In this document: positions 1 to 32,113 of the stretch, piece by piece
How the letters are laid out: every line of letters begins with the position of its first letter
Numbering within the stretch: the stretch's first letter is position 1
DNA from: Laspinema palackyanum D2c
GTDB taxonomy: Bacteria > Cyanobacteriota > Cyanobacteriia > Cyanobacteriales > Laspinemataceae
NCBI RefSeq assembly: GCF_025370875.1
Contig: NZ_JAMXFD010000024.1
Coordinates: 70,208-102,767 of the forward strand
Direction of reading: 5' to 3'
DNA length: 32,560 nucleotides
Position numbers and translations under genes: made by a program
Notes under the pieces: generated by a model
Told to the model about the DNA's origin: nothing
Databases searched by the model: none
Seen by the model: the letters and a program-made list of their open reading frames with translations, nothing else

Positions 1-324
1 CGGTTGTTCAGCAACAGGTTCTTCCGGTTGTTCAGCAACAGGTTCTTCCGGTTGTTCAGCAACAGGTTCTTCCGGTTGTTCAGCAACAGGTTCTTCCGGT
101 TGTTCAGCAACAGGTTCTTCCGGTTGTTCAGCAACAGGTTCTTCCGGTTGTTCAGCAACAGGTTCTTCCGGTTGTTCGGCAACAGGTTCTTCCGGTTGTT
201 CGGCAACAGGTTCTTCCGGTTGTTCAGCAACAGGTTCTTCCGGTTGTTCAGGAGTTTCTGGTTCTTCCGGTTGTTCGGCAACAGGTTCTTCAGGAATTTC
301 CGGTTGTTCGGCAACAGGTTCTTC
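1..324. repeat. 24-bp tandem repeat array encoding EEPVAEQP
   Basis: Ten contiguous 24-bp units fill 1-240 and run off the left edge. Eight units are identical; the units at 169-192 and 193-216 share one silent change (TTCAGCA to TTCGGCA). Positions 241-324 hold degenerate copies: a 27-bp variant (EEPETPEQP), one unit at 268-291, a 9-bp insert and one unit at 301-324. The unit is a multiple of three and keeps the reading frame of the minus-strand gene. Near-identity at silent positions points to recent expansion or active homogenisation. Confidence 0.97.
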
Positions 325-30004: not shown

Positions 30005-31351
30005 TCATCCTAAATACTGTCTCAATACAGGTGAAATCCGATAAAGACGATCAGTTTTTTCTATCCAACAACGACGGCAAAGAGATTGTAGGATATCCAG
30101 TAAATCTGAAGAGGGCATCGGGGCAATTTCTAATAATTTGACAAGGGCGATCGGCTCATCTTCTTTAGCTAACAGAGATAAAAGTTGCTTTTCGGGTTCC
30201 GATAGCCAAGCCAACGGTTGCTGTAAAATATCTTTCAAATCTTGGGGAAATAATAACGGCTGATTTTGTAATACCTGTGTCACAGTTAAGCCTAAATCAG
30301 CCATAAAATTCGCTACAGTTTTTAACCACAAGGGGTTACCTTGATAATGGTTAATGAATCGTGAGCCGTTTTCTTCCGGTTCTAATCCTTGTTCGGCGAT
30401 AATTTGGTTAGCGGATACACTGTCTAACCCGGTCAAGATTAAGTTAGGAGCATTTGGGTGTTTAACCTGAGCAATTTCTCTCGGGGCTTCCCAACCAATC
30501 AAGAGAAAACAGCTTTGATGCGATCGGTCTTTAATTTGTTTAAAGAAACTGCGATAATCCTCATAACCCACTTGATACTGACCAGCCAATTCTTCCCGCC
30601 TAAACAGGTAATGGATATCATCTAAAATAATTAAACAGCGATGGTTTTGTAAATATTTAATCAGGGGTGGCGATGAAGTTTGATTATCCCCCTCGGTAAA
30701 ACAATCGGTTAAATTGGTTTGCAATTGAGCAACAGTCGGGCAAGTTTCCAGACTACGCCAAATCACATATTCAAATTCATACTTAATTTCTTCTACAAGT
30801 TTTATCCCCAGGGCTGTTTTCCCCACCCCTATCATGCCAATAATGGCTAAAAATTGTGCCTTTTCTCTGAGGATTGATATTTTGATGCGTTCCAGTTCAG
30901 CAGTACGATTATAGAAACTCCCTAACTTCGGCATTTCACTTAGATCGTGATGAAAATTTGCGGTTTGTTGCCGGTTAGATGTTGCTCGATTTTGCGGGTT
31001 TTGATTGGGTATATCTGGGGGGTGTCTGGCTTCTCCACAAAAGTTAATGCTACCCGCTTGAACATGATCTTGTACAACATTTGAAAATAAGGATATTTGT
31101 AGCCTCTCCATTGTCGAGCGAAAATTGGATTTAGTGACTTCCTCCTCTAACTCTTTTGAAAGTGTCTGCCATAATTTTGCTCCTACATCCCGAACATAAC
31201 TCTCATTACAGTGCTTCTCCTGAGCAATTTCGCTGTATTTCTTGCCTTGCAGAGTTCCCCGTGCGATCGCCTGTTGCAAATCATCAAGATGTTGCCCCGT
31301 CTTAGCAAACACCAGAGCATCAGCGAGTTTTAACACTTCCTCAAGATTCAT
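30005..31351 (-). CDS. Short STAND (NB-ARC-type) ATPase with N-terminal HTH-like domain
   Basis: A 448-residue signal-transduction ATPase. Residues about 1-90 match the helical/HTH-like N-terminal domain seen in cyanobacterial vWA-MoxR-associated and WD40/NB-ARC proteins (LADALVFAKTGQHLDDLQQA, then LQGKKYSEIAQEKHCNESYV). A polar linker follows. The NTPase has Walker A GMIGVGKTAL (172-181), Walker B CLIILDDIH (239-247) and a GNPLWLKTVA segment (338-347), then a winged helix from about 380 to the end. In the long relatives this winged helix is followed by WD40 or other repeats; here the protein stops at residue 448 (RQYLG). No effector or sensor domain is visible. ATG 31351 follows a TATAAT promoter and a decamer-phased repeat array. 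Confidence 0.87.
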   Translation of the reverse strand: MNLEEVLKLADALVFAKTGQHLDDLQQAIARGTLQGKKYSEIAQEKHCNESYVRDVGAKLWQTLSKELEEEVTKSNFRSTMERLQISLFSNVVQDHVQAGSINFCGEARHPPDIPNQNPQNRATSNRQQTANFHHDLSEMPKLGSFYNRTAELERIKISILREKAQFLAIIGMIGVGKTALGIKLVEEIKYEFEYVIWRSLETCPTVAQLQTNLTDCFTEGDNQTSSPPLIKYLQNHRCLIILDDIHYLFRREELAGQYQVGYEDYRSFFKQIKDRSHQSCFLLIGWEAPREIAQVKHPNAPNLILTGLDSVSANQIIAEQGLEPEENGSRFINHYQGNPLWLKTVANFMADLGLTVTQVLQNQPLLFPQDLKDILQQPLAWLSEPEKQLLSLLAKEDEPIALVKLLEIAPMPSSDLLDILQSLCRRCWIEKTDRLYRISPVLRQYLG

Positions 31352-31380
31352 ACAGTCGGGTATATTTCGTGATTTTCCGT

Positions 31381-31436
31381 ATTATACCCAACATTTCCCA
31401 GCATTTCACAACAAATTCTGGCATTTTTCAACATTT
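31381..31436 (-). promoter_or_regulatory. TATAAT promoter with five 10-bp-phased heptamers upstream of the STAND gene
   Basis: A perfect -10 TATAAT reads on the minus strand at 31386-31381, giving a start near 31374 and a short leader to ATG 31351. Plus-strand heptamers start exactly every 10 bp: AACATTT 31390, AGCATTT 31400, AACAAAT 31410 (degenerate), GGCATTT 31420, AACATTT 31430. They occupy about -16 to -62 relative to that start, across the -35 position, where no good -35 hexamer exists. One helical turn per repeat puts all copies on one face of the DNA, as for a regulator or cooperative operator. Confidence 0.75.
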
Positions 31437-31558: not shown

Positions 31559-32113
31559 GTGCTTGTCCATCTAGTCAAATCAATGAGCCGTAGTAATAGA
31601 TTGAAAAAAATTTATCTAAGCCTGCTTTTGTGTTCAATGGTTTTACCTATTGCCGCTATTGGGCAAGCGTCTCCCAACTATCAAGAACGAGATGGAATAT
31701 ATGGCGAAATAAAATTTGCTGAATTTTGTAATATACCCAACGGTTTAAGAGCAAGAGTTGTTGCTGAAGCGGGTAGTAGAGACTCCAGAGTTTCAAGTGT
31801 CGAATTTAAAATTTACTCAAGATATGCTTATGAAGTGAATTTGTGGGGACAAACAGTTGTTCATGTTACGGGTGAAAACTGGCGACCTCTAGGAGTTCTA
31901 GGTCCTCGCAATAATACCAGAGATGGTGATAGAAGATTCTATGATTCAGGACCAATGACAGGTCCACTACAGTCAGTTGTTCACTCCCCAATCAAGTTTG
32001 CGATTCATGTCAATCATAGTAGAGGTACGACAATCGATCTAGGGGGCATTGTTGATATGGGAGTAATTGAACCAGGACAGTGTAGAATATATGATGATGG
32101 TAATTTCAGATAA
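31559..32113 (+). CDS. Small secreted protein of unknown family
   Basis: GTG 31559 is chosen because AGGAG lies eight bases upstream; ATG 31583 in frame has no ribosome site. The product has 184 residues with a clear signal peptide (about 1-38: basic MSRSNRLKK, hydrophobic IYLSLLLCSMVLPIAAIG, cleavage near GQA). The mature part is about 145 residues, beta-rich in appearance, with two Cys (EFCNIPNG and GQCRIYD) that could form a disulfide. No family or catalytic motif is recognised. It is divergent from the STAND gene, with about 207 bases between starts. Confidence 0.75.
   Translation: MLVHLVKSMSRSNRLKKIYLSLLLCSMVLPIAAIGQASPNYQERDGIYGEIKFAEFCNIPNGLRARVVAEAGSRDSRVSSVEFKIYSRYAYEVNLWGQTVVHVTGENWRPLGVLGPRNNTRDGDRRFYDSGPMTGPLQSVVHSPIKFAIHVNHSRGTTIDLGGIVDMGVIEPGQCRIYDDGNFR

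Follow-up and report, generated by a model that had tools for sequence, protein, structure and literature searches.

MalT, a STAND ATPase that works as a multimeric assembly, contacts DNA by an HTH domain of the LuxR type at its C terminus and drives a regulon. In AfsR the nucleotide-binding oligomerisation domain is of the NB-ARC type. Two reports describe regulators of the AfsR/SARP group that recognise direct repeats with an 11-bp period, placed over the -35 region (PMC10936776, PMC5930380). According to the passages on PimR, one monomer occupies each repeat, binding is cooperative and a secondary operator has a 10-bp period (PMC5930380). These regulators are known activators, the targets named in the same sections being pimM for PimR (PMC5930380) and afsS for AfsR (PMC10936776). 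STAND NTPases have also been placed in conflict systems of multicellular bacteria, cyanobacteria included (PMC7159879, PMC8195603), and the section on bacterial TRADD-N proteins mentions ECF-sigma-like HTH domains and a possible transcriptional response (PMC8195603); the word 'promoter' does not occur in the main texts of these two papers.

In this study we analysed a stretch of 32,560 nucleotides from the cyanobacterium Laspinema palackyanum D2c (the window), in which the gene for an NLR-like STAND ATPase with an N-terminal HTH is preceded by direct repeats at 10-bp steps. In AfsR, as its description has it, a DNA-binding domain is likewise carried by a STAND protein with a nucleotide-binding oligomerisation domain (PMC10936776), and in the SARP operators described direct repeats likewise lie over the -35 region, with a helical turn from one to the next, the units here spanning the -35 region and the spacer. 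The sections consulted give SARPs an OmpR-type and a BTA domain, whereas a sigma-4-like HTH is predicted here; they give a period of 11 bp instead of 10 bp, two or three repeats per described operator and another gene as the target, and they mention no genome in which each of many paralogues has a unit to itself (PMC10936776, PMC5930380). AfsR and the SARPs are the closest systems in their working. Because both the OmpR-type plus BTA architecture and the 11-bp period are absent here, we place the window system with STAND transcription regulators that use phased direct repeats, and not with the SARPs. Unlike in MalT, the HTH of the window protein sits at the N terminus, and the array is conspicuous nowhere but at its own promoter and, weakly, at that of a paralogue; unlike in the STAND conflict systems, the window gene has no conserved neighbour. 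The sequence-only reading of this locus had known of no described operator of this form for the family. In searches of open-licence PMC papers, no title or abstract opening among those listed described arrays of this kind; the form as such has its precedent in the 11-bp repeats of AfsR and the SARPs over the -35 region.

Five phased units at the window promoter

The heptamers AACATTT, AGCATTT, AACAAAT, GGCATTT and AACATTT, reported earlier at 31390, 31400, 31410, 31420 and 31430, were confirmed at these positions. The gap between them and the TATAAT, reported as four bases, is three (CCC, 31387-31389), and in the register of the family these bases are part of a unit. Read on the gene strand in this register, the array consists of AAATGTTGAA, AAATGCCAGA, ATTTGTTGTG, AAATGCTGGG and AAATGTTGGG, five 10-bp units running from 31436 to 31387 and followed by TATAAT. 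Numbered from the -10 hexamer outwards, and all on the minus strand, these are candidate operator unit 1 (AAATGTTGGG, 31387-31396), which adjoins the -10, unit 2 (AAATGCTGGG, 31397-31406), unit 3 (ATTTGTTGTG, 31407-31416), the most degenerate of the five, and unit 4 (AAATGCCAGA, 31417-31426), each placed by the window sequence and the family register, and unit 5 (AAATGTTGAA, 31427-31436), placed by the window sequence and an alignment of the relatives whose predicted recognition helix starts with ESYVR (ESYVR members). By eye, a fifth unit is found in the window, L014, L040 and L141, the remaining ESYVR members having three or four. The hexamer is ATTATA on the forward strand (31381-31386), that is TATAAT on the minus strand, with its first base 35 nt before the ATG; a start site at about 31374, predicted from the -10, would leave a short leader (31352-31374, minus strand).

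The best 40-base stretch of the array has 25/40 matches at lag 10. None of 5000 dinucleotide-preserving shuffles of the 150-bp upstream region reached this value at that lag and 4 of 5000 did so at any lag from 6 to 15; the best 30-base stretch (19/30) was reached in 5 of 5000. Rfam at gathering threshold returned nothing on the window besides a tRNA.

The gene behind this promoter (30005-31351, minus strand) encodes a protein of 448 aa, and the earlier description of its product as an HTH-like domain joined to a STAND ATPase was borne out. PF00931 matches with E 4.8e-11 and 42.8 bits against a cut-off of 23.5, identifying an NB-ARC-type P-loop NTPase; the NB-ARC ATPase and a helical C-terminal part take up residues 134-448 (30008-30952, minus strand). 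No LRR or WD40 match and no match to an OmpR-type DNA-binding or BTA domain was found by Pfam in the 448-aa protein, and PADLOC gave a weak match only (E 0.0021). With the full-length AlphaFold2 model, in which the NB-ARC body is confident and residues 1-20 and 85-130 are of low confidence, the best Foldseek matches are plant resistosomes and NLRs, CED-4 and Apaf-1, which share the NB-ARC core in their fold; entry 8bob, from the maltose system, is at rank 38. Plant resistosomes, CED-4 and Apaf-1 carry a CC, TIR or CARD domain where the window protein has its predicted DNA-binding HTH.

This N-terminal domain (residues 1-87; 31091-31351, minus strand) is predicted to be helical and to bind DNA. 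It was modelled by AlphaFold2 with a pLDDT of 88 and helices at 3-18, 24-34, 39-45, 50-68 and 77-94, of which 39-45 and 50-68 form the predicted HTH; the start of the predicted recognition helix (residues 50-60) is encoded at 31172-31204 on the minus strand. The top Foldseek match of the domain model is 2h27, sigmaE region 4 on -35 DNA, at a modest E of 0.084, and sigma region 4, KorA and LuxR types are among the matches. A profile search placed 2h27 at E 0.66, below unrelated matches, and two Sigma70_r4 models reached 22 and 21 of 44 family members at E ≤1 while leaving the window's own domain unmatched. We speak of a predicted resemblance to sigma region 4. On the other side of the promoter, a divergent open reading frame (31559-32113, plus strand, 184 aa) has a start that looks by eye like a signal peptide, and no Pfam match.

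Conservation and recurrence of the array

The array is conserved upstream of relatives of the window gene, as the earlier reading had asked of orthologues: all 27 ESYVR members have it in register (unit consistency ≥0.5) together with a -10. Pairwise identity among them is 0.72-0.87 from -40 to -1 and 0.36-0.43 from -100 to -41, and their HTH domains are 62 to 100% identical to that of the window. They are not all one-to-one orthologues, since one genome (G014) has two (L017, L101). Past the -10, the stretch 31381-31352 of the window (TATAATACGGAAAATCAC) is about as conserved in these members as the array; another site, or a signal for translation, may lie there.

Nine copies of the N-terminal domain occur in the window's genome, and upstream of most of them repeats spaced by about 10 bp can be made out by eye. 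The units differ from one to the next, as in the paralogues L002 (GGAAAATGTC), L004 (GTCGGATAAA) and L006 (GCGGATAATA); in L009 the repeats lie about 200 bp upstream of the gene, and in the upstream region of L007 no repeats were seen by eye. L006 (177 aa) and L009 (273 aa, with a weak pentapeptide match) are short paralogues without an NB-ARC match, yet have phased repeats. L007 has an AAA_35 body; its upstream region resembles those of L023, L151 and L152, with a TATAAT promoter and no array. Among the matches listed, the domain is present in at least 36 of 39 genomes (the own genome and relatives) and in at least 38 of 117 genomes drawn across the phylum, and one genome has 55 domain matches, two of them with stop codons. 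One genus (G011, G012, G013) has 34-55 matches per genome, again among the matches listed, and this expansion may suit the study of insulated regulators.

From part of the matches listed, 286 were collected and reduced to 262 distinct members (22 duplicates and 2 without a start were removed), which gave 208 non-redundant upstream regions at <70% upstream identity. At lag 10, 42 of 114 discovery homologues and 27 of 94 hold-out homologues reach ≥20/30. The next lag is 20, twice the period (20/114 and 13/94), and all others stay at ≤7/114 and ≤2/94, lag 11 with 2 and 1 members and lag 9 with 7 and 2, so that nine-bp arrays exist too. Among control open reading frames from the same stretches 9 of 293 pass at lag 10; seven of these overlap a family array, leaving 2. 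An earlier count at ≥22/30 found 26 of 136 members, with none of 680 shuffles and a single one of 117 control genes passing, and at ≥19/30 the figures are 89 of 208 homologues against 2 of 1040 shuffles. The array is a family-wide pattern, not a local curiosity. It is not universal: 119 of the 208 homologues fall below 19/30 at lag 10, and 109 still do when lag 9 is also allowed, and of the 82 members of the 'same order' group 23 pass once both lags are admitted; we count these figures against the array being each gene's own operator. A 9-bp step is apparent by eye in L041, L058, L105, L117 and L134 (e.g. GTCGGAAAT, GTACGAAAA), the position ahead of the -10 being unchanged. The control upstream regions (L153-L240 and the window) have repeats of their own at lags 7 (9/293), 14 (10/293) and 21 (7/293), which suggests heptameric tandem repeats elsewhere in these genomes.

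Sorted by the length of the open frame, some frames ending at the edge of their locus, arrays of ≥19/30 occur in 69 of 149 members of 420-540 aa and in 13 of 26 of 150-260 aa, compared with 4/17 (260-420 aa), 2/7 (<150 aa) and 1/9 (540-900 aa). Arrays therefore also accompany short HTH proteins that have no room for an NB-ARC domain.

Targets of the pattern and a second family

The window's three-unit pattern, allowing ≤2 mismatches, has 12 matches in its own genome and the reversed control 11. Three of the 12 are in the own array and one, with 2 mismatches, in the array of the paralogue L003, the other eight being weak; no further three-unit array stands out in this genome. A generic three-unit pattern gave 27 rows in six genomes (overlapping windows of one array being counted apart) against 3 for the reversed control, with none in G009. 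Nineteen rows are at family promoters, judged against the positions of the listed domain matches, four at a second HTH-STAND family and four elsewhere: one in G012, one inside an open reading frame of G014, and two that resemble each other, in G014 and G128, where a gene that we take to be dapA-like begins. No conserved neighbour gene was found among open reading frames of ≥100 aa within 3 kb, the largest neighbour cluster covering 7 of 80 loci. On viral contigs 204 stretches match a pattern, and none encodes a relative.

The protein of the second family has Sigma70_r4_2 and NACHT domains. In the family's own upstream region a CTGACATTnC array with a 10-bp period is present in 5 of 6 close relatives (L332, 1411-1437, G000:C18; L334-L337), and seven more distant relatives with a start found have no array; 17 of 30 loci had no start under the rule used and were left unmeasured. 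A second family with a sigma-4-like HTH and a STAND part, and with the same form of array, is present in the window's own genus.

Promoter geometry and the sign of regulation

Ninety array members with a single best -10 give the consensus aAAAgT..G.TATAAT (such a -10 is present in 175 of 262 members and absent from 79 of 208 upstream regions). In 62 of the 90 the first base of the hexamer is 33-35 nt away from the start codon, and a G stands two bases before the hexamer in 86%. The phase of the array to the -10 is fixed across the family, the window hexamer (31381-31386) included. When 69 arrays were found without reference to the -10 and 17 without a -10 candidate were set aside, the remaining 52 gave a Rayleigh R of 0.69 (nominal p ~2e-11, descent ignored). 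In 80 members lag-10 self-identity is elevated between about -40 and -11, which means that the array spans roughly the last 40 bp before the -10. Counted from the first T of the hexamer it occupies about -40 to -1 in these members and -50 to -1 in the window, covering the -35 place and the spacer. Copies of a gene's own unit also occur farther upstream (19 in 70 genes, or 0.27 per gene against 0.047 with the units of other genes), mostly in the same direction, with 3 reversed.

The earlier proposal of autoregulation by the N-terminal HTH of the STAND ATPase is supported: the array is kept in all 27 ESYVR members, paralogues have other units with the same period and phase, and in the own genome the pattern is prominent at no promoter other than its own and, with 2 mismatches, that of a paralogue. 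We consider it probable, judging from sequence comparisons, that the array is the gene's own operator and that several NLR-like ATPase protomers occupy it. Their N-terminal sigma-4-like HTH domains would lie on successive 10-bp units on one face of the helix, one HTH per turn, between about -62 and -13 in the promoter of the gene. The protomers would be held together by the STAND body and bind cooperatively, and a flexible linker might allow a ring to place its HTH domains along a straight array. The resting protein would hold its own promoter low, and reassembly of the STAND body, driven by a nucleotide or ligand, would release or remodel this repression. Repression appears to us the most likely sign because unit 1 touches the -10, the array covers the -35 place and no other target was seen.

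The missing -35 and the analogy to AfsR argue for activation. A strong rival, which we nevertheless hold to be less probable than not, is that HTH protomers bound where the -35 would be bring in RNA polymerase, in the manner of AfsR, or that the sigma-4-like domain takes the place of sigma region 4, the result being a positive-feedback switch. AfsR, a SARP-NOD-TPR STAND protein, is described as binding two 11-bp repeats from -40 to -19 and contacting sigma region 4 (PMC10936776), and the predicted sigma-4-like fold of the HTH and the locked phase also speak for this reading. The -35 itself, reported as missing, is not wholly so at the promoter of the window gene, where by eye GTGAAA matches TTGACA in 4/6 positions at a spacing of 17 bp; for the family the claim holds in that matches of ≥4 at spacings 16-18 are in no excess (8 of 70 array genes against ~9.7 expected from shuffles), although matches of exactly 3 are commoner (46 against 26.5). 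Against autoactivation, unit 1 at about -22 to -13 is nearer the -10 than the AfsR box, and a protomer there could block polymerase. Basal firing is plausible because of the G at -14 and the near-consensus hexamer, which is partly a product of selection as hexamers were picked at ≥5/6. A second target for such a switch to drive was found neither by the pattern search of the own genome nor in the neighbour clusters.

Private units and the recognition helix

Period and phase are common to the arrays of the family, and units vary between paralogues (e.g. AAATGTTGG, AAAGTCGGA, AAAGTAGGA). Identity at unit position 7 is 0.52 within arrays against 0.24 between genes, and at position 4 it is 0.71 against 0.43; the A-tract positions 2 and 3 barely differ (0.75 against 0.70 and 0.60 against 0.55). 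A unit consistency of ≥0.5 was found in 100 of 175 members, and a collapse at 90% left 70 array genes for comparison with the HTH. When 74 ten-residue windows were scanned and the rest of the domain was controlled for, unit distance gave its highest partial correlation (0.36) at windows 49 and 50, in a peak at starts 48-51 that coincides with the model helix beginning at residue 50; for window 49-58, 0 of 2000 permutations reached the observed value. Examples of helix and unit are GH..R with AAATGTCGG, GH..K with AAAGTCGG and SY..R with AAATGTTGG.

Covariation across paralogues gives moderate evidence that the unit and the predicted recognition helix tend to vary together. A stratified test shows the link to be weaker than the scan indicates: it holds at a rest-of-domain distance <0.55 and above this vanishes or reverses, and a window beginning at residue 24 does as well as those on the helix. 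An unpooled mutual-information scan, itself noisy, has residue 54 with position -25 as its best single pair, and its column sums place K4 and D24 above the helix, which counts against the link. R54 and K54 go with T (39/46) and A (16/18) at unit position 4; we rejected this pairing as a code letter, since a weak tree shows no more than 6 changes at residue 54 and the association is at clade level, not independent of descent.

Binding of the array by the own protein is something we infer, and this leaves some room for the operator of another, unrelated regulator that controls all genes of the family. We hold this to be improbable, because one common factor would need one motif and the units of paralogues in a single genome differ and tend to follow their own HTH. 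Intrinsic curvature, a bend that A-tracts at 10-bp phase would give the promoter without any protein devoted to it, would fit the AAA(A) that begins units every 10 bp. It is slightly less probable still: the non-A core positions are repeated in a gene-specific manner, more so than the A positions, and by this comparison we rejected curved DNA as the main cause; unit 3 of the window has ATTT instead of an A-tract, and the link with the HTH would be left unaccounted for. A neutral tandem repeat arising by slippage, as near-perfect arrays (29/30 at lag 10 in two members) might suggest, is very improbable and in the main refuted by conservation, given the array kept with a sharp upstream edge in 27/27 ESYVR members, the fixed phase to the -10 and the mere 2/293 control frames once family arrays are set aside.

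If the array is the gene's own operator, unit and HTH would have changed together across paralogues, and each gene of the large family would then mainly address itself. These results offer a way into a large group of NLR-like ATPases in bacteria, whose promoters suggest that they bind DNA, mainly their own; cyanobacterial NLR-like proteins may act via transcription, beyond toxic effectors. Paralogues with differing units in one genome form a natural series for the co-change of HTH and site, and the set is a source of insulated regulator-operator pairs. As a tentative generalisation, one we would not yet lean on, filamentous cyanobacteria might hold large HTH families, mostly NLR-like ATPases, many of them wired to their own promoter by private 10-bp arrays read by a sigma-4-like domain. 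A ring-forming ATPase on four or five turns, replacing the -35, would then make an all-or-none switch of self-synthesis, with many such switches insulated from one another in a cell. The arrangement recurs in the Sigma70_r4_2 and NACHT family.

Within the ESYVR arrays the units are not all equal. By eye, 20 of the 27 members have one inner unit, AAATGCCAGA or AAATGCCATA, among neighbours of the form AAATGTTGG (31417-31436 in the window), and in many of them TTGGCAAATGCCAG forms a near inverted repeat across two units.
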